Assembly: GCA_024280855.1 (NCBI GenBank)
Contig: JAJRPG010000065.1
Span: forward strand, 1-34,334
Origin: Planctomycetota bacterium
GTDB lineage: Bacteria; Planctomycetota; Phycisphaerae; UBA1845
DNA length: 34,334 nt
Reading direction: 5' to 3'
The number at the start of each line of letters is the position of its first letter. Positions within the stretch are counted from its first letter, which is position 1. Of the stretch, positions 387-18,161 are shown piece by piece. A program made the position numbers and the translations under genes. The notes under the pieces were generated by a model that worked only from the letters and a program-made list of their open reading frames with translations, had not been told where the DNA came from and ran no database searches.

Positions 387-395
387 CTCACCCGT

Positions 396-616: not shown

Positions 617-622
617 GTAGTT

Positions 623-1045: not shown

Positions 1046-1226
1046 TTTCTGATCCGACCCTCTGATGTTACCGCTGCGCAAGTGGTGCGCCCGTTCATGG
1101 GTCGCCGCTCGCGTTGTTGGCCATTGGCATACTTACTGATGCCATAGAACTCAATGAACTTGCAGGCGTTCCGCTGCGCGATATCGCGGCGGCGATGCTG
1201 GGCTTATCACGAAGAGATGGAGAACA

Positions 1227-3554
1227 ATGATGAACACATTATGTGGCCACGGCTGTCGCGTGGCTTTTTCGATGACGGCTCTTGCGCTGATCATCTTGGG
1301 CGGTTGCAAAGAGAAAGATGAGCAAGAGAAACGAATAGGTGACGACCCACCAACAAAGGTCGTCACGGCATCCATGATCGGCCCGGACACAAGTGCGGTT
1401 CCGATTGACATGTCCAAAGGTTGGTGCAAAGGACACGGCGTGCCGGAGTCCGTCTGCACACGATGCGATGCATCGCTGATTGCGATGTTCAAAGAGCGGC
1501 AAGATTGGTGCGGGGAACATGGTTTGCCTGTGTCGCAGTGTACGAACTGCAATCCGGGGGCGCGTGAACAATGGGCGGCGCTGAACCCCGTCAGCACAAC
1601 ACAGCCAAGTAAATCTAGCGGCGCACTCGCCAGGAAAAAGGCCGCGCTCCCGCTTGGGCCAGCGTCAAGTCCTGTTGAACCAACACTCGATGATGGCTGG
1701 TGCGGCGGACACGGGGTGCCGGAGTCGGTCTGCACGCGGTGCGGCGCTTCGCCTGAGAAGTTCAAGGAAGCGGGCGACTGGTGCAAAGAACACGATCTGC
1801 CTGAGTCACAGTGCGTGACTTGTCATCCAGAGGTTGCGGCGGAATGGGCTAAGCTCAATCCCGCAAACCAGAAAGACAACCAAAGCGGTGATGCGTCAGA
1901 TGTAAAGAGCGAAAAAACACCCAACGAGCAACAGGCAGGCATGACGGGTAAGTGGTGCGCGGAACATGGCGTGCCGGAATCCGTCTGCAGCCGATGTGAT
2001 GATTCGTTGGTCGCCAACTTCAAGAAAACAAACGACTGGTGCGCCGCGCACGGGTTGCCCGAATCGCAATGCACGCTCTGCAACCCCGAAGTCAGAGAGA
2101 AATGGATCGCGCTGAGGCCGAAGACGCTGACCCGTCGTGACAGCGACGCGCAAGGTTCGATTCGCTTGGAACCCAACCGTCGGCTTCTCACGGGGAGCAA
2201 CGATAGCCAGTGTCAGGTAGATCGTTTGCAGGTTCGGTTTCTCGACGCAACGACGACACGCAAGGCGGGTATTGAAACGGAAGTCGTCCGAACCCGCCGT
2301 CTGTCGAACACGATTGAGTGTCTTGCGGAAGTGGGCTTTGATGAGACGCGGCTTGTCAGAATCACGCCCCGCGTGGGCGGTGTCGTGACGGAGGCATCCG
2401 CCGAAATAGGAAGCGTTGTCAACGCGGGTGATGTTCTGGCGGTGCTTGAAAGTCCAGCGCTGGGACTTGCGAAGAGTCGCTACATCAGCGTCCGCGAAGG
2501 TCACCTACTCGCAGCGGCAGACTTCGAGCGTGTGGACACCATCTATCGTGGCACGCAACGGATGCTGGATGTTTGCACAGCGACGACTCCTTCCAATGAG
2601 GTGAGAAACAAACTCAACGAGGTTCGAGTCGGTGATGCCAAGAGTCGCCTGTTGCAAGCGCATGCCGGACTGGAATTAGCCCGCTCGACGCTTAAACGGG
2701 AGCGAACGCTGTTCGATAAGAAGATCAGCAGTGAACAGGACTTAGATACTGCCAAGAGCAACCTTGCTTCGGCGGAGGCAGGATTTCACGCTACGCATGA
2801 GGCCGTCACCTTCAACAGCAAGCGAGATCGCCTTGCAGCGATGCGTACGCTCAAGGTGGCCAAGAGCGAAATGGATGCTGTCGCACGCGAGCTTCACATC
2901 CTCGGTTTGAGTGATGCGCAGTTGGCGGCAATTGGCAGCGAATCGGGCGTCGCACTTTCGCGCTACGATCTGCGCAGCCCAGCGGCGGGTCGCATTGTCG
3001 AAAGAAGCGCAGTTGTTGGCGAAGTCGTCGAGCAGCGGGACGCGCTTTATGCAGTCGCCGATCTATCCACGATGTGGGTGATGATGGACTTGCGTGAGCA
3101 TGACCTCACGCTGGTGCGCGTTGGCCTCCCGGTACTGCTCACCGTAGACGGTCTGCCCGGTCACTCGTTCGACGGAACCGTCTCATGGATCGCTAGCACG
3201 GTGGACGACCGAACCCGCACCGTCAAAGTCCGCGCGAATCTTCCCAACAAAGACGGCCTGCTTAGGGAAAACATGTTCGGGCTTGCGCGAATCATCATTC
3301 TCGACAACGACGAAGTGGTCTCCATCCCCAGCGAAGCCGTCCAAACCGATGGCTGCTGCCAACTGGTGTTTGTCAAGCAGGACGACACTCTCTTTGAGCC
3401 GCGCAAGGTATCACTAGGCGCGAGCGCCAACGGGCATGTTGAGATTCTTGCGGGTCTTACGCCCGGTGAATCCGTGGTCACCATCGGCAGCTTCCTGATG
3501 AAAACAGAAATCCTCAAGTCCAACATCGGCGCTGGCTGCTGTGATGTGGAATAG
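1227..3554 (+). CDS. RND efflux periplasmic adaptor (HlyD/CusB-like) lipoprotein with N-terminal Cys/His repeats
   Basis: This is the membrane-fusion subunit of a heavy-metal RND pump, linking the inner-membrane pump to an outer-membrane channel. The N-terminus is a lipoprotein signal with lipobox LGGC (Cys27). Residues 66-293 hold three paired repeats of the form WCxxHGVPESVCxRC...DWCxxHGLPESQCxxCxPE, described separately. From about residue 330 comes the adaptor proper: a barrel-sandwich/lipoyl half (RVGGVVTEASAEIGSVVNAGDVLAVLESP), a long alpha-hairpin (about 425-560), the second lipoyl half (DLRSPAAGRIVERSAVVGEVVEQRDALYAVADLSTMWV) and the beta-barrel and membrane-proximal domains. It ends in GCCDVE, a possible extra metal site. 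At 775 residues it is much longer than usual adaptors, mainly because of the repeats. ATGs at 1227 and 1230 are both possible, with GGAG at 1219-1222 ahead of them. The pump gene starts 14 nt downstream. Confidence 0.93.
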   Translation: MMNTLCGHGCRVAFSMTALALIILGGCKEKDEQEKRIGDDPPTKVVTASMIGPDTSAVPIDMSKGWCKGHGVPESVCTRCDASLIAMFKERQDWCGEHGLPVSQCTNCNPGAREQWAALNPVSTTQPSKSSGALARKKAALPLGPASSPVEPTLDDGWCGGHGVPESVCTRCGASPEKFKEAGDWCKEHDLPESQCVTCHPEVAAEWAKLNPANQKDNQSGDASDVKSEKTPNEQQAGMTGKWCAEHGVPESVCSRCDDSLVANFKKTNDWCAAHGLPESQCTLCNPEVREKWIALRPKTLTRRDSDAQGSIRLEPNRRLLTGSNDSQCQVDRLQVRFLDATTTRKAGIETEVVRTRRLSNTIECLAEVGFDETRLVRITPRVGGVVTEASAEIGSVVNAGDVLAVLESPALGLAKSRYISVREGHLLAAADFERVDTIYRGTQRMLDVCTATTPSNEVRNKLNEVRVGDAKSRLLQAHAGLELARSTLKRERTLFDKKISSEQDLDTAKSNLASAEAGFHATHEAVTFNSKRDRLAAMRTLKVAKSEMDAVARELHILGLSDAQLAAIGSESGVALSRYDLRSPAAGRIVERSAVVGEVVEQRDALYAVADLSTMWVMMDLREHDLTLVRVGLPVLLTVDGLPGHSFDGTVSWIASTVDDRTRTVKVRANLPNKDGLLRENMFGLARIIILDNDEVVSIPSEAVQTDGCCQLVFVKQDDTLFEPRKVSLGASANGHVEILAGLTPGESVVTIGSFLMKTEILKSNIGAGCCDVE
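1422..2105 (+). repeat. Three tandem paired Cys/His modules in the RND adaptor
   Basis: Modules begin at Trp66, Trp158 and Trp243 of the adaptor and the last ends at Trp293. Each has two half-modules: WC-x-x-HG-VPES-x-C-x-x-C followed about 15-20 residues later by DWC-x-x-H-x-LP-x-SQC-x-x-C-x-P. Each half offers three Cys and one His, a plausible zinc- or copper-binding knuckle, six in all. The modules are joined by linkers of variable length rich in Ser, Lys and Asn. The middle half-modules vary slightly (EHD for EHG, PVSQ for PESQ), so this is an old duplication, not a recent slip. Confidence 0.85.
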
Positions 3555-6500: not shown

Positions 6501-6634
6501 CGGGCGTAGGTGCAGAAGTTCAGCGCCCCCTCGCCACGGTCGTCATCGGCGGCGTCCTAACATCCACAATGCTGACCCTGCTCGTGCTTCCCGTGTTCTA
6601 TTCATTGCTGAGCGGAAACGCGAAGAAGTCCTAG
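3569..6634 (+). CDS. Heavy-metal efflux RND pump (CzcA/CusA family)
   Basis: This inner-membrane proton/metal antiporter has 1021 residues, the normal length for HME-RND pumps. It has TM1 near residues 12-32, a first periplasmic loop opening with PIDAFPDTTPVQVQVNT, TM2-TM6, a second large periplasmic loop, and TM8-TM12 at the end. The TM4 signature is D393-FG-LIV-D399-SSVIMI-E406-N. Its Asp/Asp/Glu spacing matches the proton-relay residues of CzcA, and the DFG form fits divalent-cation pumps better than Cu(I) CusA, which lacks DFG there. It follows the adaptor by 14 nt with GGAAAG upstream of the ATG, so the two are one operon. No outer-membrane factor gene follows: the next gene is on the other strand. 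A weak 5-bp hairpin (6693-6709) lies downstream. The exact metal is not decidable. Confidence 0.95.
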   Translation: MLNDIIYWSLRHRFIVIAIAVGLAVTGAFSLSRLPIDAFPDTTPVQVQVNTVAAALSPVEIEQQITFPVEQAISGLRGLVEVRSLSKFGLSQVTVIFDDDTDIYLARQQVMERLSTVELPEGLSQPAMGPVATGLGEVFHYILTSDTKNLSDLRAIQDWIIRPQLRSVSGVAEVNSWGGHERHYQVVVDPVKLTKYDLSLLDLFNALRRNNANVGGGNITRSGEQLLVQGIGFVTTLEEIGNIVVTATDGVPIYVRDLGDVIDGHEVRRGAVTYGGKGEAVLGLGFMLMGENSRDVTERLKARMEQVKMSLPPDVEVKTVYDRTDLVDLVLNTVKTNLFEGAILVVVVLFLFLGNFRAGLIVALAIPLSMLFAGNLMLRVGIAGSLMSLGAIDFGLIVDSSVIMIENSVRHLAESNDGRSRIEIVRDAAIEVRKPTMFGELIIMIVYLPILTLEGIEGKLFSPMALTVIFALAGSMIASLTLMPVLASLCLPKKIKDREPLIVRLAKRAYAPMLRYVLSARGVVLSFTGVALVSAVWVALNLGAVFIPRLSEGAIVINTVRLAGVSLEESVRYGTKIEQELLTSFPDEIKDIWSRTGTAEVATDPMGIELTDVFITLHPRTQWQRASTQAELVLMMEGKLASMPAMRAIFTQPIEMRVNEMVAGIRSDLGIKVFGDDFVQLKTIAGQIEDILKSIPGTADAVTEQVTGLPVLKIRLRQDQLARHGVPASEVLDFVAAIGNIRIGEIRQGQVRFPLSVRLPDEYRTDPERVANLLIPTASGQLLPLSRLADLEIVDGPSTINREWSKRRVVVQCNARGRDVASLVAEARTRIESEIDFPPGYFVRYGGQFEHLERASRRLMFVVPLALSLIFVLLYITYGRVTDVIRIFMTLPLAVVGGVFALHFRDMPFSISAGVGFVAMSGVSVLGDMVFVSYLRSLLDKGMSMYEAIEQTAMMRLRPVLMTGLVAALGFVPMAFNTGVGAEVQRPLATVVIGGVLTSTMLTLLVLPVFYSLLSGNAKKS

Positions 6635-6812: not shown

Positions 6813-9716
6813 TTAGTCCACAGCACGAACATTTGCCCACGACCCTGCGACTGGCGTTGCATTAGCCCCAAAACCTATGACGCTAGCGCCAACCAGAACG
6901 CCTTTTCCTACCCGCGTCGTGAAGTGCCAGTCTCCGGTACTCGCGCGATACCTAGCCGGGTCGTCCAAGCCGTCGCCGTCCCAGTCGCCTGCCACGCCCG
7001 TGTCGATGGATGGGTTGCCCCATGACCAGTTCTGGTCGCGGTAGGTCGTCCCCCATATCCATCGACGATCGTTGTCTAGGTCAAACTGCCAGCCGACCGA
7101 TCCGTTGGGCGTGTTGCCGAGGTTGCTGATTCCGTCTCCTGTCCAGTCGCCGACAACAGAAATGGATCGATTGTATTGAGTATCGAGTGCTTCTCCAGAG
7201 CCGTCCACATGATCGCCGTTGAGATCGAGATGCCAAAGATTGTCTGGCGTTGTGAACCCAAGCTCGGATGTTCCGTCGCCGTTCCAATCGCCCGCGATAG
7301 CAATCGCACCAGCGTCCGCGCCGTAAGTGAAAGTTACATCACCACTATCGAACACACCGTTGCCATTCATGTCGAGCATCCACATATTGCCGGACGCCGA
7401 CGGCGTCATTACGCCGATCTCGTCGAGTCCATCGCCGTTCCAGTCGCCAACCACGGGGGTGTCGCCCGCTTGTCCAAATGTCGTAGTAAAATCGGCCACT
7501 CCATCGAAGTTGTAGTCAAACGCCCACTGTCCCGCATCAAACCATCCGATGCCGTCCTTGGGATCGTTCGGGTTACCCGTGTAGAAGCGGGTTGCAGCGA
7601 GCGGATCAGACGGCAGCGTTGCATGTGCGATGGCTTCAACTGTTACATCGAAGCTACCGCTATTGTCGATGATGAGTCCTTGCTGCTCGGCCACACCAAA
7701 AAACAGGCGTGTCGCATTCTTGGGGATCACGACTTGGCTAGATGTTCCGATCACAAATATGTGTTGCAGAAGCGGTGTCGTTGTTGTAATCCCGGACGAC
7801 GACATATACGGCAGCAAACCGGATGACGGCAATGCGGCTGTGAGGAAAACGCCGACGAGAGCGCCTTCCTTGTAGTCGGTCATCGCAGTCAGGCCAAACA
7901 CCTGGCTCAACCCGTTTGGGCGAAGCACCCAGTTACGACCATCGGGCGTCGCGGCGTTGTTTCCTCCAGTGACGACAACACCTGTTGCCGTGAAGCGGAG
8001 TTCCATCCCTGCCCACGCGGAAACATCAATCATTTTCGGCGAATGTTGAGGCGCGACGCTCGTGAATCCAGTCAACGACCATGTTGCCGTTGTACCATCG
8101 GGCTGACCGGAAAGATAAATATCGGTCGGGCCGGGTACTGTCACAGTCATGGTCAACTGCGATGTCGAACAGCCGTTACTATCTACCGTTTCGCCAGCAG
8201 GGGTCTGAGCGCACTTATCGTTGCAATCGTTCGCGCCGTCGTTGTCCGCGTCGAGTTGGCTGCAATGGCAACCGCTCGCATCGACCGTGGCTCCGGTGGC
8301 TGTGTTTGGGCAATCATCCGCATCGTTCATCACGCCATCATTGTCGTCGTCAATCTGATTGGTTGCACATCCGTTAGTGTTTACTGTCAGTCCGGCGCTT
8401 GTGCTGGCGCAAGTATCGTCGCAGTCGTTTACGCCGTCCGAGTCGGTATCCAACTGCGAACATGAGCAGCCTGCGGTATCTGCCGCCTCGCCGGACGGCG
8501 TGCTTGCGCAGTTGTCGCTACCATTGATAACCCCATCACCATCGTCGTCATCGAGATCGTCGTCTGCGCAGCCCGTATCATCAACGACTTCTGTACTCTC
8601 GCTATTCAAGCAATCATCATCACAATCGTTCACTCCATCGGCGTCGCCATCGCGTTGAGAGCAATCGCATCCAACATCGTCCACAGCTTCACCCGCGAGC
8701 GTGTCCGGGCAAGCATCTGTTCCGTTGCTCACTCCGTCATCGTCGTCGTCATCAATATCCGACTCCGAGCAGCCCGAATCATCTATCGCATCTTCGCTGG
8801 CCGTGCGAGGACATGTATCGCTGCAATCATCAACGCCGTCGTTGTCGCCGTCGCGCTGCGCGCACGAGCAACCACTCTCATCAACAATCTCTTCGGCAAT
8901 CGTTTCCGGGCAAGCATCGGCGTCGTCGGTGACACCATCGGCATCGGTGTCCACTTCGGAGTTATCATCATCTTCGTCAGAATCATTACCGCCATCATCA
9001 AGGTCGTCACAATCGCCAAGGTAGTCGCCGTGGGCAAGATGAGCGTCCACAGACGATGAACCCACGGTGATCGTGTGCGGGTCGCCTTCGTCTTTTTCCG
9101 GCGGGATATGGCAAATCACAACACGCTTTTCGTCGTTGGGAAGCCGTCCAAACTCGAAGGACGCGCCGCCCAAAGAGATCGACCCGTCGAAGTCCGCTTC
9201 TGTTTCCGAACAAAACTCAAAGCGACCGCCACGAACCAGTGATCGAAAGCGGGCGTTGAGCGGAAATGAATCTTGTTCCAAGGTGACGACGCCATCAATG
9301 ATGGTCAACTCAAACGGCCCGATGGTTTCAAGCGCATCGCACGCATCGGAATCTCGCTCAGCCATCCGAAAGGTAATAGAAGCATGGTGTCCTTGTCCCT
9401 TGGATGTAGGACTTCGGCGACTCGCCGCTTCGCCATCGACAGACACAGTAATGCTCTCTGCTTGAAGCGTCAGGGATACCTCGTCTTGCGTGTCAGCAAG
9501 AACATTGTCCGGCATGGTGACGGTAGCTGGCTCAGATTCAACGACGCCTGCTTTGGCGGTTAATCCATCCGAGCCGCCGATCTCAGGAAAATCGACAGCC
9601 ACAAACTCTTGGTCAGCGAGAGTGCCACCATCAAGCGACGACAAAGCATCGCAACCAGAGAGGAAGCACATAACGCTTAGCAATCCCAGCGCATTCATCT
9701 TTCGTCTTTTTAGCAC
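6813..9716 (-). CDS. Large surface lipoprotein with thrombospondin type 3 calcium repeats and FG-GAP/VCBS-like repeats
   Basis: The protein starts with a lipoprotein signal (lipobox LSGC, Cys22 counted from the GTG at 9716; an ATG at 9698 is an alternative start). Residues about 198-237 carry the CHIPP...HTITVG...AHLAHGDYLGDC motif common in secreted bacterial proteins. Residues about 250-520 are many repeats of the type DxDxDGVxDxxDxCPxT with paired cysteines, typical thrombospondin type 3 Ca-binding repeats. The C-terminal third has repeats VVGDWNGDGLDEIGV, IAGDWNGDGTSELGF and VAGDWDGDGLDDPAR, which resemble FG-GAP/VCBS beta-propeller blades with Ca-binding loops. I infer a rigid Ca-loaded surface or adhesion protein; no catalytic domain is seen. 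It is transcribed alone, opposite to the efflux operon. The many long open frames across this gene on the + strand are shadows of its Asp-rich repeats. Confidence 0.9.
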   Translation of the reverse strand: MLKRRKMNALGLLSVMCFLSGCDALSSLDGGTLADQEFVAVDFPEIGGSDGLTAKAGVVESEPATVTMPDNVLADTQDEVSLTLQAESITVSVDGEAASRRSPTSKGQGHHASITFRMAERDSDACDALETIGPFELTIIDGVVTLEQDSFPLNARFRSLVRGGRFEFCSETEADFDGSISLGGASFEFGRLPNDEKRVVICHIPPEKDEGDPHTITVGSSSVDAHLAHGDYLGDCDDLDDGGNDSDEDDDNSEVDTDADGVTDDADACPETIAEEIVDESGCSCAQRDGDNDGVDDCSDTCPRTASEDAIDDSGCSESDIDDDDDDGVSNGTDACPDTLAGEAVDDVGCDCSQRDGDADGVNDCDDDCLNSESTEVVDDTGCADDDLDDDDGDGVINGSDNCASTPSGEAADTAGCSCSQLDTDSDGVNDCDDTCASTSAGLTVNTNGCATNQIDDDNDGVMNDADDCPNTATGATVDASGCHCSQLDADNDGANDCNDKCAQTPAGETVDSNGCSTSQLTMTVTVPGPTDIYLSGQPDGTTATWSLTGFTSVAPQHSPKMIDVSAWAGMELRFTATGVVVTGGNNAATPDGRNWVLRPNGLSQVFGLTAMTDYKEGALVGVFLTAALPSSGLLPYMSSSGITTTTPLLQHIFVIGTSSQVVIPKNATRLFFGVAEQQGLIIDNSGSFDVTVEAIAHATLPSDPLAATRFYTGNPNDPKDGIGWFDAGQWAFDYNFDGVADFTTTFGQAGDTPVVGDWNGDGLDEIGVMTPSASGNMWMLDMNGNGVFDSGDVTFTYGADAGAIAIAGDWNGDGTSELGFTTPDNLWHLDLNGDHVDGSGEALDTQYNRSISVVGDWTGDGISNLGNTPNGSVGWQFDLDNDRRWIWGTTYRDQNWSWGNPSIDTGVAGDWDGDGLDDPARYRASTGDWHFTTRVGKGVLVGASVIGFGANATPVAGSWANVRAVD

Positions 9717-10038: not shown

Positions 10039-10095
10039 TTATCGGGCTTTTCTTGGCGCGGTTCGCTCTCTGTAGTCGTTACTTCGGTGGATCAT
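10039..10095 (-). pseudogene. Vestigial start of a fourth methyltransferase copy
   Basis: An 18-codon frame begins at an ATG (10095) that overlaps the last 17 nt of the third methyltransferase gene, the same arrangement as at the two upstream junctions. Its peptide MIHRSNDYRERTAPRKAR resembles the N-termini of the second and third enzymes (MNHRRNDNQGTQALC and MTRSRNNNQSTQAIC) for about nine residues and then stops at TAA. Part of the likeness is forced, because the same bases encode the conserved C-terminal NYDPPK in another frame. I read it as the scar of a lost copy or of the duplication process; it is unlikely to be a functional gene. Confidence 0.4.
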
Positions 10096-10984
10096 AGTTC
10101 ATCCAAAGTGAAAGCGTGCGCGACGGGCGCTTACGCCCCCGCATCGTCGGCCCGACGCAACTGTTGGCCTTGATATCCACTCGCCGAAACTTTCGCAATT
10201 CGTTATCGTACAGGTCGCTTCGATATCCACAGAGCAAAACCCTTGTCTTCTTGAGCCTCCGCACGATTTGTAGCAAGTGCTGATGTTCCTTGCGGCCAAA
10301 TTCGTGCAGATACTTGTTCTGCGTGACGCGCGTCTCTGGCAAGTAGGGAGGATCCAAAAATGCGGCTGTGTTCGACGCATCTACCAAAGTCTTATCGTAG
10401 GTGTCGCATTCGATCCTCACGCCCCGAAGCCTGCGCCCTGTATGCTGGAGCATTCCCGGCAACCGCGCCCACAGATTCGCGTGCTTGTTCGTGAAGGATT
10501 TACCGTATGACCAACCAGACTCGTTGGTGTAGCTGCCAACTCGGCTCTGGCGACAGGCAACCAAGAACAGGAATGCCTGCTGTACGGAATCCTCACTACT
10601 GCCAGCGCGTCTCGTGGCGACACAATCCCGGTAAACGCTTCGGCTGTAGGGCGTGAATTCGACTTGTTCCATGAGGCGACGGCGTGAGGCAGGTTGCTGA
10701 ATCACACGCCAGAGGTTGACGATGTCGGCATCGCGGTCTCCGATGGTCTCGCTCTTGGACTCGCCCACGGGCTTCCGTCGTGCGAGCAGTACCGATGCCG
10801 TTCCCGCAAACGGTTCAACATAGTGGTCGTGGGGAGGGAGCATCGCAGCAATCTTGTGTGCATGATAATGTAGACTTCCGTACCACTTGAGCGGGGATGC
10901 GCGGAGCATGGCTGTCGTGCGACCAACGGCGGCGGGGTCACATATCGCTTGCGTGCTTTGGTTGTTATTTCGACTGCGGGTCAT
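10079..10984 (-). CDS. Dam-like D12-class DNA N6-adenine methyltransferase, third of the tandem set
   Basis: This enzyme of 301 residues would transfer methyl from S-adenosylmethionine to adenine N6 in DNA. It has SPLKWYGS near residue 30 (the D12-family K-W-x-G entry), the SAM-binding motif EPFAGTASVLLA (57-68), the acidic loop GDRDADIVNLW, and catalytic motif IV D211-PP-Y214 followed by YLPETRVTQNKYLHEF. The target recognition region lies between. The start at 10984 is chosen because its N-terminus MTRSRNNNQSTQAICD aligns with the second enzyme, and because the ATG overlaps the preceding gene by 20 nt; an earlier in-frame ATG at 11008 lacks this support. It is the last functional gene of the leftward operon. 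All key residues are intact. The target sequence cannot be predicted from what I see. Confidence 0.88.
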   Translation of the reverse strand: MTRSRNNNQSTQAICDPAAVGRTTAMLRASPLKWYGSLHYHAHKIAAMLPPHDHYVEPFAGTASVLLARRKPVGESKSETIGDRDADIVNLWRVIQQPASRRRLMEQVEFTPYSRSVYRDCVATRRAGSSEDSVQQAFLFLVACRQSRVGSYTNESGWSYGKSFTNKHANLWARLPGMLQHTGRRLRGVRIECDTYDKTLVDASNTAAFLDPPYLPETRVTQNKYLHEFGRKEHQHLLQIVRRLKKTRVLLCGYRSDLYDNELRKFRRVDIKANSCVGPTMRGRKRPSRTLSLWMNYDPPK

Positions 10985-11861
10985 AATTCGTCCAAATTGA
11001 CAACACACGCTCGTCGCGTTTGCTGCCCTTACCGCGTAGCGCGGCGAAGCTCTTGGTCTCGATATCTGTTCTTCGCCACCCTTCGAGGCGCGTTCTGTAT
11101 AGTTCGCTTCTATAGCCGCAGAGAATCACCTTGGCCTTCTTGAGCTTGCCAACGAGGTAGAGCAGTCGCTCATGTTCCTTGGTACAGAATTCATGCAGGT
11201 AAATCTTGGGCGCAACTCGCGTGGACGGGATAAACGGCGGATCCAAAAAAAGAACCGTTTTCGGTTTGTCGAGCCAGCGAAGGGTCTCCTGATACGGCAG
11301 ACACTCGATCTGCGTCCGCCGGAGTCTGCGTCCGGCCAGTTCGATCCGCGCTGGTAGTCTTGCCCACGAATCCGCCTTCTTGTTCGCAACACCCTTTTCA
11401 TATGCCCAAGAGTTGTGGGTGCCAGCCCCGTTACGGCTTTGGTTACAACGCACGAGAAGCGACCACGCGCGCCGCACGGAGTCTCGTTCGCCGTTTTCGA
11501 GGACGCCGATGCACTCCTTGAAAACCACTCTGCTGTACGGCGTCATCTCAAGTTGCTGGATCAAGCGTCGTCGGGTGCCGGGCCGCTGTACCACCTGCCA
11601 GAAGTTGACGAGATCGGCGTTGATATCCGAGATACACTCCGTTTCGCGCACGGGCTTCGACAGCAAGACGGACAGTCCGCCCGCAAAAGGCTCAGCGTAG
11701 AAGTCATGCCGTGGCATCATATCCACGATCTGGCGAGCGAAGGACTGGAGACCTCCGTAGTACCGAAGAGGAGACGCGGGCGTAGTAGCCTCCGTGAAGG
11801 CTACCGCTGGTGCGTCACACAGCGCCTGCGTACCTTGATTGTCATTTCGACGGTGGTTCAT
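10965..11861 (-). CDS. Dam-like D12-class DNA N6-adenine methyltransferase, second of the tandem set
   Basis: It has 298 residues from the ATG at 11861: SPLRYYGG at 30-37, the SAM motif EPFAGGLSVLLS (57-68), SDINADLVNFW, and motif IV D207-PP-F210. The Phe in place of Tyr is an accepted variant of [DNS]PP[YFW], but both neighbours have Tyr. The ATG at 11861 overlaps the end of the fused methyltransferase gene by 20 nt; the open frame extends further upstream to 12068, but that part runs antiparallel to no known domain and lies within the upstream gene, so I reject it. Its sequence resembles the first and third enzymes along the whole length (for example TPYSR, NQSRNG, LCGYRSELY, NYDP at the C-terminus), so all three are paralogues. 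Translational coupling through the overlap is likely. Confidence 0.88.
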   Translation of the reverse strand: MNHRRNDNQGTQALCDAPAVAFTEATTPASPLRYYGGLQSFARQIVDMMPRHDFYAEPFAGGLSVLLSKPVRETECISDINADLVNFWQVVQRPGTRRRLIQQLEMTPYSRVVFKECIGVLENGERDSVRRAWSLLVRCNQSRNGAGTHNSWAYEKGVANKKADSWARLPARIELAGRRLRRTQIECLPYQETLRWLDKPKTVLFLDPPFIPSTRVAPKIYLHEFCTKEHERLLYLVGKLKKAKVILCGYRSELYRTRLEGWRRTDIETKSFAALRGKGSKRDERVLSIWTNYDPQSK

Positions 11862-13629
11862 AGTTTGTGTAGACCGACAGCATGCGATCAGGGAGCTTGC
11901 GGCTTTTGGTACGCGGCCCGGCGTAGCTTTTCCCCTTGATGTCTGTTCTCTGCCAGCCGTCGAGCAAGTCGTCGTAGAGATCAGAGCGATACGAACAAAT
12001 GGCCACCTTTGCATCCAGTCCGCGAGCGATGCGGAGCAACCGTACATGATCGTCGCGGGTGCATTCATGGGTATAGCGATCGCTCGTTACCCGCGTCTCC
12101 GGGAGGTATGGTGGATCAAGCAGGTAAAAAACGCCGCGCGAATCATAGCGCCGAAGGATATCTTCAAACGGCAGGCTCTCCACTTGGACACGCTTGAGAC
12201 GCTGGCCTACTTCGGCGAGTCGAGTTGGCAGCGTTGCCCATGCGTTCGGGTTCGTACCTTGGGTTTTCGTGTAAGCCCAATCGGATTCGTTCTTGGCACA
12301 GCCGTTACGAGATTGGTTGGACGCCACCAAGAATCTCCATGCATCCGTTACTGGGTCTTCGGCTGTGTCCCGTCCGGCGAGGCAATCGTGAAACTCCACT
12401 CGGCTGAAAGGCGTAAGTTCGATCATCTCTATCAGACGCTTTCTCAAGCGCGGCTCTCGCAAGACACGCCAGAACCCGACGAGCTTCTCGTCGATGTCGT
12501 TGTAGGTTTCGATTTTGCTCGGCGGCTTGGCCAACAGAATGGCAGCGCTGCCGCCGAAAACCTCGCAGTAAAATTTGTGTGTCGGGAACAAGTCCACGAT
12601 CTTGGCAGCGTAGCCGTTCAAACTTCCATACCAACGAAGCGGAGAGGTGGGACTTCTCGCCGTGACGGGCTTTGCTCCCCTCGGCTTTCGGAGACGGGAG
12701 TCCTTGGCCACGACCTTGGCGCTCGTTTGTTTTTTCACTTTGCAGGAACCCGGTCGAAGCTCCGCAACAATTCGCTCCGCGACAGCAGCCGCTACCGGAA
12801 CAGGTATACAACGCGACAACTGCTTTCGTGCGGTGCGCCATTCGGGATAAACAACGAACGAGTCGGCTATACCTTGCAGGCGTGCGATTTCTCTCTCGTT
12901 GAGAATACGCCATCGGCCATCTGGCAGGGTCAGGATGTTGTCATAGGGTGCATCGGGCGAATCAGTCAATTCGTTTGCGCAGCCATCGGTGACAAATCCC
13001 ATGTGCCATGTGTTGCCGTTGTTCATGCTGCGTCCGCGACGGGCGATCAGTTTGTCACGGCTCATCTCTGAGATGAAGTAGCGATCATGCGGTGTCGGAT
13101 CGAGCAGCGTGTCGATGCTGCTCATCCTGCCCTGTTTGGTCGGAAAGCGAAATGCGGTCTCCCGGTCAAAGGCCACGATGCACTCAGTCTCGCCTGTTTG
13201 TGGAAGCCCGAACTGTCTGGCGTCCAGCTTGGCACGGTGTACGAAATAGCCGAGGCGAACCAACTCGTTGATCAGTGCCGCGCGGCTCGTTGTGCTTACA
13301 GCATCGGCCTTTCCCGCCAGCAGGCAGGCGAGGGGTCGGTGCAGGCAGACCACATCAAGGATCATCGCGTGGGGATGCTGCGCCGATCTGCGTCGCTTGG
13401 CGGTTGCTGCGCACTCGTCAAGATTTACGGCCAGAATGTCATGCGCGGGAATATCGTCAGCGGTGCCGATGATGCTGTCGCCGAAGTTCTCGTGGTAGCA
13501 GCGGCGCGCCTTCCCATCGGCGGTGTATGACCAAACACACTCGGCACCTGATCCCTCGAACGCCAGCCGCATCGCACCGATGCCGCAGTGCATTTCGGCG
13601 TACTTGAGTGGTTTGCTGTGTCGAGGCAT
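11842..13629 (-). CDS. Fusion of a catalytically degenerate C5-cytosine methyltransferase domain with a D12-class adenine methyltransferase
   Basis: Residues 8-290 align by eye with C5-cytosine DNA methyltransferases: motif I HCGIGAMRLAFE (15-25), motif II CVWSYTADGKARRCYHENFGD (31-51), RQFGLPQTGE (138-147) and LNEREIARLQG...IPVPVAAAVAERI (243-287). The catalytic motifs are gone: the Pro-Cys of motif IV is Leu70-Asp71, the ENV of motif VI is Asp92-Val-Val, and the two Arg of the QxRxR motif are lost. Residues 329-595 are a D12 adenine methyltransferase with SPLRWYGS, the SAM motif CEVFGGSAAILLA (355-367) and D505-PP-Y508, all intact. Lys/Arg-rich residues 292-325 link the halves. The start at 13629 has AGGA eight bases upstream. 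It is the first gene of the methyltransferase operon, 68 nt after the DUF3102-like gene. I infer that only the adenine activity works and that the dead half recognises DNA or regulates. Confidence 0.88.
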   Translation of the reverse strand: MPRHSKPLKYAEMHCGIGAMRLAFEGSGAECVWSYTADGKARRCYHENFGDSIIGTADDIPAHDILAVNLDECAATAKRRRSAQHPHAMILDVVCLHRPLACLLAGKADAVSTTSRAALINELVRLGYFVHRAKLDARQFGLPQTGETECIVAFDRETAFRFPTKQGRMSSIDTLLDPTPHDRYFISEMSRDKLIARRGRSMNNGNTWHMGFVTDGCANELTDSPDAPYDNILTLPDGRWRILNEREIARLQGIADSFVVYPEWRTARKQLSRCIPVPVAAAVAERIVAELRPGSCKVKKQTSAKVVAKDSRLRKPRGAKPVTARSPTSPLRWYGSLNGYAAKIVDLFPTHKFYCEVFGGSAAILLAKPPSKIETYNDIDEKLVGFWRVLREPRLRKRLIEMIELTPFSRVEFHDCLAGRDTAEDPVTDAWRFLVASNQSRNGCAKNESDWAYTKTQGTNPNAWATLPTRLAEVGQRLKRVQVESLPFEDILRRYDSRGVFYLLDPPYLPETRVTSDRYTHECTRDDHVRLLRIARGLDAKVAICSYRSDLYDDLLDGWQRTDIKGKSYAGPRTKSRKLPDRMLSVYTNYEPPSK

Positions 13630-13697
13630 TGGGGCGTTCCTTTAGCATGATGATGGTAGCATCTGCATTCCGCTGCTCGGCTGAAGCGCACTTGCGT

Positions 13698-14366
13698 TCA
13701 CCGTTTCTTGGATGTCTTTCGTTTTGCAGATGCTTGTATCCGAGCGTGTTGCTGCTGGATGACCGCACGCACTTTCTTGAAAGCCGCAGCGTCGCTCGCG
13801 GCGATCTCCGCCAGTTGTTGCTGGGCGGATCGCAACTGGTCGCGCGTTCGCGCCGAGCCGGGCAGCGCCGCCGACGGTCGGTAGACTTCGACTTCACTCA
13901 AAGTCTCGGTTTCGAGTTTCCTGTTGCAGTTCGTTTGTATGCGGGATTCGCGTGTTCTCCCATCCGCCCGTTTCGTGGCCTCATCGACTTCCTGATTCGC
14001 CTGCAAGTGAGAGATCGCACCACGCACAGATTCGATTCCCTTGGGGAATGCCTTGAGCGAGGGGAAGGCACGATTGACTCGCATGATGTCGTAGGCTTGG
14101 CGTTCGCCAAGATCGAAATGCTTTTTGATGAAGGCGACCCACGCCCGACCGCGCAGGTCGGCTCGCTGTTCTTTGATGAAAATCAATTCTCTACCAGCCA
14201 GCCATGCATGGTGGATGGTTCTGCGCCCGCATATCTCGATGGCTCGGATGTGGTTCTTGATAAAGGCTACACGCTCTGTCTCTGCCACGCTGGACGAGAG
14301 GATGCGCAGCGCAGGGACTTCTAGTGAATCGCTCTTAGCACGGCGAACTACATTGGCTGCGGGCAT
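13698..14366 (-). CDS. DUF3102-like protein
   Basis: This 222-residue protein resembles the DUF3102 family of plasmids, phages and integrative elements in residues about 50-100: AWLAGRELIFIKEQ...AWVAFIKKHFDLGERQAYDIMRVNRAF. The usual family pattern is G-x-x-L-x-x-K-x-x-L then W-x-x-W-x-x-x-F-x-x-S-x-R-T-A-Q-x-Y-M, so the match is by pattern only. The rest is a charged, mostly helical tail, with a Gln/Ala-rich stretch (TRDQLRSAQQQLAEIAA) that could be a coiled coil and a basic end (KRKTSKKR) that could touch DNA. The start at 14366 has GAGGAG six bases upstream. It lies 68 nt before the fused methyltransferase, probably in the same transcript. Its role is unknown; a DNA-associated accessory of the element is my guess. 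Confidence 0.65.
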   Translation of the reverse strand: MPAANVVRRAKSDSLEVPALRILSSSVAETERVAFIKNHIRAIEICGRRTIHHAWLAGRELIFIKEQRADLRGRAWVAFIKKHFDLGERQAYDIMRVNRAFPSLKAFPKGIESVRGAISHLQANQEVDEATKRADGRTRESRIQTNCNRKLETETLSEVEVYRPSAALPGSARTRDQLRSAQQQLAEIAASDAAAFKKVRAVIQQQHARIQASAKRKTSKKR

Positions 14367-14461
14367 AATTGGCTCCTCGGTTGGGGATTCTCGTACGGAA
14401 GTGCAGATCGGGTTGCGTAGCCCGACGCCTCGCGCTCACCGCGCCGGACGCCCCAGTTTTC

Positions 14462-14920
14462 TTATCGGAAGTTGGCGGGCGTGATTGAAGTTGCTAGTGG
14501 GGTAGGGTCGCCACCGGGATACGCTCGGCGGCGTCTTCGATCGCCCCTGTACGGCTCGCACAGGCACCTGTCGGACGGCTGTCCCGGCTTAACAGCCATT
14601 AGGCACTCGTATCGGCGATCACGCACGACAGTTGTCCTACGATGCAGGACGGTAGTCTGGGAGTCATGTCCCACATCGCCGGACGGAGCTGAGCCGTCTG
14701 TCGGGAGTCCCGCCCCCTCCTCCACGACGCACCCTGGCAGCGAGTCTAATAGAATCCGGTTGAGGCGCTCGGCGACCCATTTCGGCAGCGGGATGTTCTG
14801 ATCCGACTTCGGCACTTGGCTCACCTTGCGGCCACGGTAGCGCTGGGCGGTCATCGTCTCCGCTTGTTCCCAACTCGGCATGGCGAGTGCCAAGTCCCTC
14901 GTGCGCCAGTCGAACGCCAT
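14462..14920 (-). CDS. Hypothetical protein of the mobile element
   Basis: The family is not recognised. From the ATG at 14920 the protein has 152 residues. The first 50 look like real protein (MAFDWRTRDLALAMPSWEQ, then RYRGRKVSQVPKSDQNIPLPKWVAERLNRILLDSL), and AGAAGAG lies just upstream of the start. The second half is rich in Arg, Gly and Pro (GDRRRRRAYPGGDPTP) and may reflect GC-rich DNA rather than a folded domain; an open frame of similar length lies on the opposite strand at 14472-14801. It is the first leftward gene from the hairpin region and sits 95 nt before the DUF3102-like gene. An in-frame ATG at 14935 is less likely because nothing resembling a ribosome binding site precedes it. 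Confidence 0.45.
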   Translation of the reverse strand: MAFDWRTRDLALAMPSWEQAETMTAQRYRGRKVSQVPKSDQNIPLPKWVAERLNRILLDSLPGCVVEEGAGLPTDGSAPSGDVGHDSQTTVLHRRTTVVRDRRYECLMAVKPGQPSDRCLCEPYRGDRRRRRAYPGGDPTPLATSITPANFR

Positions 14921-15082
14921 GACATCTCTTCTCATTCGCGTTTCAGTTACGACACTCCATGTGATGCACTTTCATGCAAACCGTTTTTGAAATCCTGAAA
15001 ACTTCTTGCCGTGGATCGTACAGAAACTAGCGAAAGATAGAGCCGTCTTTGGATGGGCATCAGACATCTATAGAGCATTCTC

Positions 15083-15131
15083 GCCTAGGAGGGGGTGGGC
15101 CTCCTATAGGGAGGCCCACCCCCTCCTAGGC
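15083..15131. repeat. Perfect 22-bp inverted repeat with 5-nt loop
   Basis: Arms 15083-15104 and 15110-15131 are perfect reverse complements, with loop TATAG between. The arms are very GC-rich and begin with GCCTAGGAGG. The palindrome lies between divergent genes (14920 leftward, 15355 rightward), so it is not at the end of a gene and has no T-run, which argues against a terminator. A DNA cruciform, a regulator or replication-protein site, or an RNA leader structure is possible. Confidence 0.9.
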
Positions 15132-15194
15132 TGTCCGAGTTCTGGCGAATAGTCGGACACCACCCTCTTCTTGGTATGAATACGCGCGATTCTC

Positions 15195-15226
15195 CTGTCC
15201 GTTTTCTCTGCAAGGAAAACGGACAG
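15195..15226. repeat. Perfect 12-bp inverted repeat with 8-nt loop
   Basis: Arms CTGTCCGTTTTC (15195-15206) and GAAAACGGACAG (15215-15226) are exact reverse complements around an 8-nt loop. It is 63 bp to the right of the 22-bp palindrome and is followed at once by a third, shorter hairpin (GTGCC / GGCAC, 15229-15245). All three lie in the leader of the gene at 15355. It could be an operator, or an RNA stem-loop acting on the downstream transcript. Confidence 0.85.
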
Positions 15227-15354
15227 CAGTGCCGTTTCGTGGCACGCCAGATAGCACCTTGATTTCCAAAATATCAGGTCTAAAACAAGTAGACGAGCAT
15301 GACGAAGCGCGGTCGCTTTGTTTGCAATGGAAGTTCAAGACAAAGGAGCTTGAG

Positions 15355-15999
15355 ATGGCCAACCGGAAGAAAAAGAAGATAAGCCGAGCGGGGATGCGTC
15401 AGAACATTGGTGGTACGCGGACGGAGCGTAACAATGATCAGGCGGCACCGCCGACCATGACCCCTACGGGGGAGAAAGGAGACGGGCTGATGTTCGTCAA
15501 CAACGAATCAGGCAAGGCGCGTGAGAGTGAAAAAGGAATGCGGAAAGCCGCAGAAATCAAGCCCGGCGATGCCCGGCAGAAAGGAGAACAGGTCATGAAC
15601 AATAACATGCCGTTACCGTCGCAGGATAGCATCTTTCGGATGGACGCCATCGCGCTGGCTAGAGATGCCTGCCCGAAACTCACACACGACGAATGGCAAG
15701 TCGTCATGAACGCCCTCAACTCACACAGGAACGCGCTGATGCTCGGCTGCATCGGCCAGATCACGGACGCGCTCTTCGACACGCGGATGAAGGTGGCCGA
15801 CGCCACGCACATGGGAGCCGGGACGCACCCCGACTGGCCGAACAACATTCCGTATCCAGACACTGACGGCTCGGCGTCGGCTCTGACCCGCAAGTATCCG
15901 GCTTGGACAGACACGCAGTGGCGGGCGGTATCGCTGCTGGCTCAGGCGTTCTGGCATTACGGGCTACAGTCCGACGAACTTCCGTTAGCCAGCGAGTAG
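15355..15999 (+). CDS. Hypothetical protein with nested in-frame start sites
   Basis: No family is recognised. From the ATG at 15355, with AAAGGAG six bases upstream, the protein has 214 residues. The first 80 are hydrophilic and low in structure (MANRKKKKISRAGMRQNIGG...). The region after residue 81 looks folded and helical, with two similar pieces, LTHDEWQVVMNAL and WTDTQWRAVSLLAQAFW, which may be a duplicated helix motif. Two further in-frame ATGs at 15490 and 15595 each have AAGGAG-type ribosome binding sites at eight bases. The shortest product would begin MNNNMPLPSQDSIFRMDA and consist of the folded part only. The open frame also extends upstream to 15229, but that part covers the hairpins and has no ribosome binding site. 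It is the only rightward gene between the hairpins and the excisionase-like gene. Confidence 0.6.
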   Translation: MANRKKKKISRAGMRQNIGGTRTERNNDQAAPPTMTPTGEKGDGLMFVNNESGKARESEKGMRKAAEIKPGDARQKGEQVMNNNMPLPSQDSIFRMDAIALARDACPKLTHDEWQVVMNALNSHRNALMLGCIGQITDALFDTRMKVADATHMGAGTHPDWPNNIPYPDTDGSASALTRKYPAWTDTQWRAVSLLAQAFWHYGLQSDELPLASE

Positions 16000-16009
16000 A
16001 TTGGGTTCG

Positions 16010-16042
16010 GCGGCAGGGGGCGGCGGCGCTGCCCCCTACCGC
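16010..16042 (+). terminator. Strong GC-rich hairpin after the hypothetical gene
   Basis: Arms 16010-16024 and 16028-16042 pair over 15 positions with one mismatch and one wobble, around a 3-nt loop. The hairpin starts 10 nt after the stop codon of the gene at 15355, the expected place for a terminator. It has no T-run, so it may act as a factor-dependent terminator or as a 3'-end stabiliser. Confidence 0.55.
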
Positions 16043-16271
16043 GAAGGGGATTGGTACGCAGAAATGATCCGGCACGCCTAGGTGCGGCTGGACAAACTAA
16101 TTGAGTGTGTTTCCCCGTGGTTGATTTTCGTTCCCGGTATGTTCCAAAAGCGTAATTGGGTTCCGTAGGCGAAGCGTAAAGTCAGCAGATTATGCGGTAG
16201 TGGCAGGGGGCGTGATTCCGTAGCTGAAATCGGATGGAAAACGATTCGGATAGAATAGGTCAGAGGCACTG

Positions 16272-16670
16272 ATGTATCGAGGGGATGAAGACAATCTGCG
16301 GCAAGGTCAGCTTGACGGCGAGATGAGCGCGCCGTCCGACGCCAGCGTTCCGCGTGGTTCCTCCGTCGGCAAGCGGAGTCGCCAATGGACGGATGCTGTC
16401 CAGCGACTGCGCCCCCTCAGCATCGACGAGGCAGCCAAGGCAGCACGGTGCCGCCGTGGTGACCTTGAGAAGCGGATTGAACGAGGTGACCTACCCGTTA
16501 TCCAGCGCGGGTCGCGGCGGTATGTTCGCCAAGAAGACTTGCAGAAGATGCTTGAAGATGAAGCTCAGGTCTCGCCGGAGTCCGGGCGGCGCAGGCCGCG
16601 CGGGAATGGCCGCCGTGTGAAGATGAACCCCGATGACATCGACCCGCGTTTGCGGAGGTTCTTCGATTAG
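16272..16670 (+). CDS. Excisionase-like MerR/Xis-type helix-turn-helix protein
   Basis: The protein has 132 residues. Residues 49-95 (LSIDEAAKAARCRRGDLEKR, then IERGDLPVIQRGSRRYVRQEDLQKML) are an excisionase-family DNA-binding domain: a helix-turn-helix entering with S-x-x-E-A-A and ending in the RGSRRYVRxEDL wing. Flanking parts are charged and disordered, with a basic stretch SGRRRPRGNGRRVK. Such proteins direct excision of integrative elements or act as small regulators. It converges on the integrase gene, and the two stop codons overlap by 4 nt (TAG at 16668-16670, TAA in the other strand at 16669-16667). The start at 16272 has AGAGG upstream; an ATG at 16324 is possible. Pairing with the integrase supports the excisionase role, but recombination directionality is inferred. 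Confidence 0.7.
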   Translation: MYRGDEDNLRQGQLDGEMSAPSDASVPRGSSVGKRSRQWTDAVQRLRPLSIDEAAKAARCRRGDLEKRIERGDLPVIQRGSRRYVRQEDLQKMLEDEAQVSPESGRRRPRGNGRRVKMNPDDIDPRLRRFFD

Positions 16671-17950
16671 GCTCCTTCTTTTTCCTTCCACGAATCCAAG
16701 TCGTCCGAGTCGAGCATCCGGTTGACCCACTCTACAACCTCCTTCACATTTGGCGATAGATTTTTCATATACTGGTCAGCGGCGTCACTCTTGCCGTGAC
16801 CCAAGAAGGTTCGTACTGCCGCCAACCCAACACCATCACGAGCCGCATACGATGTTGCCCCAACATGTCGCCAGATGTAGAAGCCTTCCGGCCAGTCATC
16901 CATCCCGGCTCGCGTCTTCAATTTCCTGAACGCCTGCCAAACGCTATCGGATCGCTTGTACGGAGTCTTGCACGCCTCGCGCGTCGTCGTGCCATTTCGC
17001 AATTCATCGTCCGTCTTTGCCTTGACCCAGACGAGCGGGAGTCCGTTGCGCGTTCTAAACAGGAGGTCGTCCTTGTCGCCCCCATTTGTCTTCATATATT
17101 TCTCAAGGTGCGCCCACACCATCGGCCACATTGTTCCGTAGCGAGCGAACCCGGTCTTGCCGCGTTTCATGTCGTAGCTGTCCTTGTCGAAATGAACGGG
17201 ACATGAACGGGCGAGATCGTCGTTGCCAAACCCCAACCCGATGCCGAGCCAAATCCACACGCGCTCGCGTTCGCGTGCCGCCTTGAGAATCGTTTGAATC
17301 ATCTTGACCGAGGGGATTTCTCGCTCACGATTGTTCTCGACACCACCAAATTGCTGAACATCATTCGGCCCGAATGATAATCGCGCCTGAAATGGACGGC
17401 GTTTCGCAAAGTCAGCGATCTTCCAAAACCGCTGTCGATGCTTGTTTACCTGTGAAGCACCGAGACGCTTGGAGAAATACATCATCATGGCCTCGTAATC
17501 AGTCTCCGTGAACAGGTCAGAGAAGGCATCCGACTTTAGGCGGTCGTCATAACGCTTCTCGGCCCAATCGAGGATGCTGACGACTTGGCGGCAGTTGTCG
17601 TCGAAGACGCGCAGGGTGATCGTTCCCTTTTTCCGGGCAGCACCGTCGGGTCGCACCCGACCCTCGTCGTGCTTGATGAAGGCATTGGCGATATGGGGCA
17701 GCGTTTGCACCGAATCGCCCTTGAAGCCCGACCCGTCTCGGATTACGATGTCGGCAGCGTCATCGTAGTGTTCGATGACCCAGCGACGGTACTCCTGCTC
17801 GGATTCCTTGCGATCCCGGCTGAACCGTCGCCGTTGACATTTGCCGTCGGCATCGCGGTAGGCAGCGTAGTACCTACCCTTTCGCCCCTCGGTATTCTCG
17901 GAGAGCTTTGGTATGCGTCGCCTTGTTGCCAATCGTGGGTTTGTTGCCAT
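16667..17950 (-). CDS. Tyrosine recombinase/integrase of an integrative element, planctomycete type
   Basis: It has 427 residues from the ATG at 17950; an in-frame ATG at 17980 is less likely. The N-terminal part has GRYYAAYRDADGKCQRRRFSR, an arm-binding-like beta-sheet, then a core-binding helical domain (about 100-200). In the catalytic domain WRHVGAT (about 357) supplies the usual Arg-His, LGHGKSDAADQYMKN supplies the second His and the Tyr nucleophile (about 394), and GKTGFARYGTMWP matches the Lys beta-turn region. The first catalytic Arg, usually in TGxRxxE, is replaced by LGFGNDDLAR, a form I know from planctomycete integrases. It catalyses strand exchange between attachment sites. It is convergent with the excisionase-like gene and lies 139 bp from tRNA-Gly, on that gene's 5' side. 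Confidence 0.88.
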   Translation of the reverse strand: MATNPRLATRRRIPKLSENTEGRKGRYYAAYRDADGKCQRRRFSRDRKESEQEYRRWVIEHYDDAADIVIRDGSGFKGDSVQTLPHIANAFIKHDEGRVRPDGAARKKGTITLRVFDDNCRQVVSILDWAEKRYDDRLKSDAFSDLFTETDYEAMMMYFSKRLGASQVNKHRQRFWKIADFAKRRPFQARLSFGPNDVQQFGGVENNREREIPSVKMIQTILKAARERERVWIWLGIGLGFGNDDLARSCPVHFDKDSYDMKRGKTGFARYGTMWPMVWAHLEKYMKTNGGDKDDLLFRTRNGLPLVWVKAKTDDELRNGTTTREACKTPYKRSDSVWQAFRKLKTRAGMDDWPEGFYIWRHVGATSYAARDGVGLAAVRTFLGHGKSDAADQYMKNLSPNVKEVVEWVNRMLDSDDLDSWKEKEGA

Positions 17951-17987
17951 GCACAGACAGTATCGGATGCCGGGCTGCAACGCATCA

Positions 17988-18089: not shown

Positions 18090-18161
<72 letters not shown>

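Follow-up and report, generated by a model that had tools for sequence, protein, structure and literature searches.

The present analysis concerns a stretch of 34,334 nucleotides (hereafter the window), contig JAJRPG010000065.1 of the Planctomycetota bacterium assembly GCA_024280855.1 (Phycisphaerae, UBA1845), and in particular a gene on its minus strand that encodes a fusion protein of 595 amino acids (aa). In this protein a domain of the DNA cytosine-C5 methyltransferase (C5) type is followed by a domain of the D12 class of DNA methyltransferases. Judging from its active-site residues, the fusion has almost certainly lost cytosine-C5 catalysis, and the C5 half is a pseudo-methyltransferase, probably under structural constraint. 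Our preferred reading, held tentatively at a probability of roughly 45%, is that this pseudo-methyltransferase acts in cis beside an altered D12 domain, and that the pair would give a mobile element an orphan mark. The gene and its parts are as follows.

11842..13629, minus strand: fusion protein of 595 aa, pseudo-C5 followed by D12 (open reading frame (ORF) and Pfam; AAAGGAA upstream of the ATG)
12757..13608, minus strand: pseudo C5-methyltransferase domain, residues 8-291 (Pfam PF00145; predicted model aligned to M.HhaI)
12646..12756, minus strand: basic low-confidence linker, residues 292-328 (net charge +10 over 293-328; predicted local distance difference test score (pLDDT) <50 at 296-323)
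11845..12645, minus strand: D12-class methyltransferase domain, residues 329-595 (Pfam PF02086)

Both families are recognized by Pfam at a cut-off of 22, DNA_methylase PF00145 with 78.1 bits (E 1.1e-21) and MethyltransfD12 PF02086 with 52.6 bits (E 6.8e-14), and phmmer aligned residues 7-289 with M.HhaI. The two halves fall below the curated cut-offs of NCBIfam, at 66.5 vs 100.65 bits for dcm (TIGR00675) and 52.3 vs 114.85 bits for dam (TIGR00571), and the two D12 paralogues encoded next to the fusion are likewise below the latter. The fusion gene is the sole C5 match of its genome.

Active-site residues and scaffold of the C5 half

The conserved motifs of C5 enzymes provide the residues for catalysis, cofactor binding and holding of the target base. 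The C5 half was compared with 40 C5 relatives, gathered by similarity to the intact C5 domain of a homologous fusion in Phycisphaerae bacterium OFTM250, which is described below. Since the searches used an intact C5, these relatives show what C5s with complete motifs look like and not how frequently C5s die; they are not an unbiased census of dead C5s. The regions concerned are listed here.

13393..13434, minus strand: erased motif IV, residues 66-79, LAVNLDECAATAKR, without Pro-Cys (alignments and frame check)
13306..13320, minus strand: erased motif VI, residues 104-108, ENV replaced by AGK at 105-107 (alignments)
13174..13203, minus strand: erased motif VIII, residues 143-152, PQTGETECIV, with Pro-Gln kept and both Arg lost (alignments)
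12790..12828, minus strand: erased motif X of the C5 half, residues 268-280, GNSV replaced by SRCI (alignments)
12916..13077, minus strand: region matching the target-recognition domain, about residues 185-238 (comparison with the OFTM250 C5s)

Pro-Cys is present in 40 of 40 relatives and absent from the 595-aa fusion, where the Phe-Pro-Cys of motif IV corresponds to L70, D71 and a one-residue deletion. The arginines of the QxRxR in motif VIII are replaced (R146G, R148T), and motif I is damaged by F14H and G19A, with G16 and G18 kept. Further losses include Glu36 of motif II and, by deletion, the Asp of motif III and the Leu of motif V. Among the 37 columns that are at least 80% conserved in the 40 relatives, the fusion keeps 16 and loses 21. 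The lost columns include Pro, Cys, Gln, Ser and Gly residues of motif IV and its surroundings, all of ENV, both motif VIII arginines, Gly-Asn-Val of motif X, the Phe and third Gly of motif I and, by deletion, Asp-Ile of motif III and Leu of motif V, while G16, G18, G28, Y45, D64, P99, G127, Y128, P143, Q144, P163, R241, E247 and G253 are among those kept. F140-G141, RLQG at 250-253 and VPVAAAVA are also present. As the cofactor-pocket residues are gone too, the C5 half probably does not bind S-adenosylmethionine (SAM), and its SAM pocket looks gone. A compensated frameshift as the source of the erased motifs is not supported: other reading frames at motifs I, IV, VI, VIII and X hold no Pro-Cys, ENV or GN, and some contain stops.

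The distribution of the losses was then evaluated on columns whose conservation reached 75% or more among 37 relatives (the three OFTM250 C5s being left out), with columns in motifs I, IV, VI, VIII and X set against all others. With gap columns excluded, a choice that favours motif-specific loss as these are columns gapped in the 595-aa fusion, the fusion retained 4/22 motif columns vs 19/21 of the others (Fisher p = 2e-6); scoring gaps as losses gave 4/23 vs 19/24 (p = 3.1e-5). Grouping the motif III and V stretches with the motifs, which was done after the fact, gave 4/27 vs 19/20 kept. Across twelve settings of threshold and mask width, p ranged from 2.1e-6 to 0.012 with gap columns excluded and from 1.6e-5 to 0.14 with gaps as losses, in the latter case below 0.01 in 11 of the 12. 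No relative among the 40 retains fewer than 15 of 21 motif columns (gaps excluded) or 16 of 22 (gaps counted), and the motif-erasing pattern occurs in none of them. At the best-conserved non-motif columns, gap columns excluded, the fusion matches the consensus at 0.90 vs 0.89 for the three OFTM250 C5s. Neutral decay is disfavoured by this pattern, since drift would strike motif and non-motif columns equally, whereas the open frame alone proves nothing, because stops in the C5 half would also kill the D12 half. The comparison thus lends good support to a non-catalytic C5 scaffold kept by selection. In a tree of 36 relatives and the 595-aa fusion, from which four relatives longer than 395 aa were dropped though they were kept in the column counts, the terminal branch of the fusion measures 1.47 vs 0.43-0.54 for the OFTM250 C5s, with a weakly supported placement, and 3 of the 36 relatives have branches of 1.50-1.52. 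The net charge of the C5 half (+2) lies within the range of the relatives, -7 to +26.

An AlphaFold model of the fusion, built from 20 aligned sequences, has a mean pLDDT of 84.7, a predicted template modelling score of 0.53 and a low-confidence inter-domain linker. Its N-terminal half superimposes on M.HhaI with a Z score of 30.2 over 277 residues at 2.7 A. Since the alignment held relatives with complete motifs, the model indicates that the fold is compatible with the sequence and is not proof of folding. The C5 half therefore resembles M.HhaI and other C5s in predicted fold (Z 30) and differs from them in having no Pro-Cys, ENV, QxRxR or GNxV. With the C5 fold kept in the model and the catalytic and cofactor residues lost, the half is classed as a pseudo-methyltransferase, the fold being a predicted one.

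The original prediction, made from the sequence alone, had placed a C5-type fold at residues 8-290 and held that the fold remains while cytosine methylation is lost; the Pfam and phmmer matches, the sequence comparison and the predicted structure bear this out, the last as a compatible C5 fold for the N-terminal half. It had also been right on the absent QxRxR arginines and on the retention of the FG-PQ and RLQG/VPVAAAVA regions. Other claims needed amendment. Pro-Cys is lost as claimed, yet the site is L70, D71 and a deletion rather than Leu70-Asp71 alone; ENV is lost as well, and its place is A105-G106-K107 in the alignments, not Asp92-Val-Val. Motifs I and II, described as kept, retain G16 and G18 but have lost Phe14, Gly19 and Glu36. 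The damage extends beyond the three sites first named, as motifs I, II, III, V and X are also hit. Selected reuse of the domain, preferred at that time to plain decay, finds support in the motif-specific loss with a conserved scaffold; DNA recognition, flipping or autoregulation had been put forward as possible roles for it.

Relatives with complete motifs

The homologous fusion, of 676 aa, lies on contig JAJDDY010000041.1 of Phycisphaerae bacterium OFTM250 (G032), a genome from the same family. Its cassette comprises two standalone C5s and the fusion, all with Pro-Cys and ENV, and the fusion additionally carries QSRRR, GN, DPPY and the motif X lysine of the D12 domain, while one standalone C5 reads AHSRRR in the motif VIII region. 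The two fusions are alike in their 37% identity along the whole length, in a related upstream ORF and in belonging to a tandem methyltransferase cassette. They differ in that the OFTM250 fusion has complete motifs and the D12 motif X lysine, and is accompanied by two additional standalone C5s where the other has two additional D12s. Indeed, the OFTM250 C5 domains stand in tandem (L027: 10531-11490, 9477-10487 and 7414-9444), mirroring the three tandem D12 domains in the cassette of the 595-aa fusion. The D12 half of the OFTM250 fusion groups with these three D12 copies at 100% ultrafast bootstrap (28 relatives, OFTM250 included). The upstream ORF is the following.

13698..14366, minus strand: ORF of 222 aa upstream of the fusion, related to the 311-aa upstream ORF of OFTM250

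Over 84 aa the two ORFs are 31% identical (E 4e-8, calculated for this one comparison). Because the OFTM250 fusion keeps Pro-Cys, ENV, QxRxR and GN, the motifs were not yet lost in the common ancestor of the two. A homologue retaining Pro-Cys at this position had been named in advance as evidence against a dead domain; as it turns out, this one points to a lineage-specific loss and restores no activity to the 595-aa protein. The simplest story, drawn from two genomes only, would be an ancestral fusion from which one lineage went on to gain C5 copies and the other D12 copies, with C5 catalysis lost only in the lineage of the 595-aa fusion.

Close relatives of the dead version were found neither in viral_contigs nor in genome_contigs with the 595-aa protein as query. 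An alignment of the two fusions matched both halves only in the OFTM250 record, 1 of 16 loci in genome_contigs, and in 0 of 6 loci in viral_contigs, where the OFTM250 fusion as query also found nothing. With the latter as query, two-domain matches were confined to the source genome and OFTM250 both among 114 genomes of the order (E 1e-10) and among 397 genomes of the class (E 1e-25, best two candidates per genome at most). The 595-aa fusion searched against 392 genomes of the phylum (E 1e-30, best three candidates at most) recovered only the source genome and not OFTM250; the order, class and phylum sets overlap, and weaker or broken fusions could have been missed. In two genomes of the same genus the C5 half has no match at E 0.001, and one of them, G002, has other C5 genes. 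Several candidate fusions were rejected: L094 (566 aa) has a D12 match only, L075 (706 aa) has a C5 match only plus a weak unrelated one, and, of the phage matches that span both halves in two pieces, the two examined (H57 and H62) each consist of two adjacent genes.

Among known systems, Dmt of phages P1 and P7 is similar in its C5-D12 order, in its single chain and in its location on a mobile element. It differs in sharing 21% identity with the 595-aa fusion, and it is annotated as bifunctional, with the C5 activity given only as 'perhaps'. The 595-aa fusion thus has the domain order of a P1 Dmt-type protein and lacks the second feature of that type, the presence of both active sites. P1-type Dmt covering at least 80% of the query was found in 506 of 72,556 plasmid records and 19 of 50,697 phage records. 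All eight translated examples contain ENV, the motif VIII arginines, GNSM, WxGGK and DPPY; Pro-Cys is plain in six and split in the other two by an insert that starts just after Pro and ends before Cys-Gln. At least nine plasmid matches (9 of 60 among the matches listed) cover the D12 half of Dmt only, as does phage D6. According to passages of a 2025 review (PMC12707154), P1 dmt is essential in Dam-minus hosts, as packaging needs Dam methylation.

The two Dmt proteins with the in-frame Pro/Cys insert are 1013 aa long and lie at 247-3288 both in the phage P1 record OP279344.1 (L128) and in NZ_CP099870.1 (L129). The insert of the former matches the Hint_2 and LAGLIDADG_3 models and looks like an intein. 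At least 12 plasmid matches (12 of 60 among the matches listed) begin at Dmt residue 78, the Cys, as expected of an insert of the same kind.

The D12 half and the competing explanations

The fusion is the first of three tandem genes, and the next two encode standalone D12 paralogues.

10965..11861, minus strand: D12 paralogue b, standalone, with the ATG of MNHRRND chosen as start; DPPF; Leu at motif X (ORF and Pfam)
10079..10984, minus strand: D12 paralogue c, standalone, with the ATG of MTRSRNN chosen as start; DPPY; Leu at motif X (ORF and Pfam)
12619..12621, minus strand: Leu337 of the fusion, at the position of the motif X lysine (WxGGK) (D12 survey)
12106..12117, minus strand: DPPY of the fusion, residues 505-508, kept (translation and alignment)

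The fusion overlaps paralogue b by 20 bp, and paralogue b overlaps paralogue c by 20 bp, as expected of a coupled operon, which the three genes would form. Paralogues b and c are 46-47% identical to the D12 half of the fusion, and the three copies are 46-51% identical among themselves. All three keep DPPY or DPPF, the FxG motif (FGG in the fusion) and the acidic D378 column, and their pockets are probably still under selection. In the model, residues 326-592 match PDB entry 7m6b (titled Mcbe1; Z 26.1) and E. coli Dam (Z 25.5) equally well; from the entry name, we take 7m6b to be M.CbeI. The D12 half thus resembles Dam, DpnM and M.CbeI in predicted fold (Z 25-26 to Dam and 7m6b), DPPY and FxG, and departs from the first two at motif X, which reads WAGGK in Dam and WTGGK in DpnM and has Leu here. 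Indeed, in a survey of 64 D12 domains from the examined loci (ORFs of at least 150 aa, E 1e-15), the motif X residue is Lys in 60, Leu in three, all from this locus, and a gap in one. Columns S545 and E584, 96% conserved in 28 relatives, are also altered in all three copies (S to C and E to L), and of the columns at least 90% conserved the copies keep 18-19 of 24, while the 28 relatives keep 21-24 of 24-27. The motif X lysine corresponds to K11 of T4Dam, where it positions the catalytic Asp, and to K16 of EcoRV, and alanine mutants at this position are inactive in EcoRV and RlmJ, as stated in passages of PMC3814359. Since the lysine is missing and such mutants are dead elsewhere, the D12 half may not methylate at all. 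As regards its product, M.CbeI, annotated as D12 and with DPPY, makes N4-methylcytosine (m4C) according to passages of PMC3425538; because this enzyme is of the same class, the term adenine is unproven for the D12 half. The original prediction of an intact adenine methyltransferase with its SAM motif and DPPY stands as to DPPY and FGG; the word intact does not agree with Leu337 against Lys in 60 of 60 other domains with data, and the substrate may be N6-methyladenine (m6A) or m4C.

In the preferred reading, the 595-aa fusion would descend from a bifunctional modification enzyme, C5 plus D12, encoded in a mobile-element cassette; OFTM250 keeps an intact-looking version of it. The C5 half has lost catalytic, cofactor and base-holding residues, with scaffold residues kept about as in relatives with complete motifs, and may now serve the D12 half in cis, through the basic linker, as a module for DNA binding or positioning that has no catalysis of its own. 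The D12 half would still bind cofactor and DNA and methylate, probably slowly or with an altered base preference, to yield m6A or, less likely, m4C, and the resulting mark would be an orphan modification of the element, for protection or regulation. The retained D12 motifs count for this reading, as DPPY/DPPF is kept, unlike the C5 active site of the same protein, and activity is placed ahead of a binding-only role because the copies have diverged to 46-51% identity yet keep DPPY/DPPF. The motif-specific loss, the predicted fold, the OFTM250 homologue with its related upstream ORF, and the precedents of RsmC and DNMT3L described below also speak for it. Several observations weigh against it. 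The D12 half is without the motif X lysine. The dead version was found in one genome only. With gaps counted, 5 of 24 conserved non-motif columns are lost, the stretches of motifs III and V accounting for four, and one of the twelve settings is not significant (p = 0.14, gaps as losses). AlphaFold can assign the family fold even to a non-folding sequence, and relatives with complete motifs were among its aligned sequences. Finally, identity of the target-recognition region to the OFTM250 C5s is 0.21 vs 0.31 among those C5s; as this region is no better kept and the charge is unremarkable, DNA recognition by the dead half is without direct support.

The best surviving alternative, unlikely in our view but a serious one, is that both halves and the two D12 paralogues are inactive and now act as DNA- or SAM-binding regulators, decoys or sensors. 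Leu at motif X in all three copies, against Lys in every other domain with data, fits this possibility together with the dead alanine mutants of EcoRV and RlmJ (passages of PMC3814359), the shared S-to-C and E-to-L changes and the retention of conserved columns below that of the relatives. The shared change suggests an origin before the two duplications, and the copies nevertheless persist at their present divergence. On the other side, proteins that only bind, or that are relaxed, need not keep DPPY/DPPF, FxG and the acidic D378 column, and the Thr found at the equivalent place in M.TaqI implies that the lysine is not universal among m6A enzymes (passages of PMC3814359). A kindred account, which we regard as improbable, is that the three-gene cassette has turned non-catalytic, with C5 and D12 pseudo-methyltransferases and two more D12s binding DNA or SAM for the element. 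Selection would then have removed methyl transfer and kept the folds and most of the D12 pocket, to give for example regulators, or decoys that occupy restriction sites without marking them.

That the C5 half is a useless, drifting leftover, whose frame is open only because the D12 half lies downstream, seems quite improbable. Stops in the C5 half would also abolish the D12 half, ahead of which no internal start preceded by a Shine-Dalgarno sequence looked convincing, the terminal branch is long (though three relatives have longer ones), and the D12-only Dmt matches on plasmids and in phage D6 imply that a C5 half is dispensable; a leftover does not, however, account for 19/21 non-motif columns being kept (19/24 with gaps) while 18/22 motif columns are lost (19/23). 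New chemistry in the C5 half through other residues is very unlikely: Cys73 is near the old site, two positions from D71, where the old Pro stood, but the half has also been stripped of conserved cofactor-pocket residues in motifs I, II, III and X and of the supporting ENV and QxRxR. A sequencing or assembly artefact is hardly credible, for although the window is one contig of a 112-contig draft, the changes affect five separate sites, alternative frames at the erased motifs hold no intact motif and in some cases stops, the D12 lysine change recurs in three separate genes, and codon-position G+C is like that of neighbouring genes.

Mobile-element setting and significance

Beyond the cassette and the 222-aa ORF, three features belong to the setting of the fusion.

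16272..16670, plus strand: excisionase-like helix-turn-helix protein, probably of the same element (Pfam HTH_17 5.8e-07; phrog_1840 excisionase 3.6e-05)
16667..17980, minus strand: tyrosine-recombinase-like integrase, a weak match (Pfam Phage_integrase 5.9e-04, below cut-off; phrog_216 5.9e-06)
18090..18161, plus strand: tRNA-Gly(CCC) adjoining the integrase (tRNA detection)

Tyrosine recombinases are known by a characteristic pattern of catalytic motifs, of which the integrase shows WRH...LGH...Y; the first catalytic Arg, in box I, is not evident by eye (GFGNDDLA). Within the window there is no direct repeat of the tRNA, and 10079-17980 has no DNA match in the phage collection. Around position 18000, where the tRNA and integrase lie, G+C drops (about 0.57 over 1-18 kb, about 0.49 over 18-34 kb), and four other stretches of the same genome have values of 0.485-0.517. 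In the same-genus genome G002 (contig C57, L116), an identical tRNA-Gly(CCC) lies at 2225-2296 and its 3' part is repeated after it, exactly or nearly so, at 9516-9564 and 24939-24986, which suggests tandem integrations at tRNA-Gly(CCC). In a second genome of the genus, G001 (contig C12, L115), 34 bp from the 5' part of this tRNA-Gly recur as an exact, isolated copy at 6550-6583.

Dead methyltransferase domains are already known in RNA modification and in mammals: passages of PMC1282579 describe RsmC, in which an inactivated methyltransferase domain is fused to a catalytic one, and DNMT3L, a regulatory dead C5 relative that assists a catalytic methyltransferase. RsmC modifies rRNA, whereas the 595-aa fusion joins domains of different classes, a dead C5 and a D12 whose activity is in doubt. 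Among the matches listed from the open-access literature, none was seen to describe a C5 pseudo-methyltransferase joined to a D12 domain and carried by a bacterial mobile element. Together with its OFTM250 homologue, the 595-aa fusion represents a before-and-after pair for the role that a DNA methyltransferase fold may have without catalysis, and the change at motif X common to the three D12 genes of the cassette offers a natural test of whether the lysine is essential in the D12 class.

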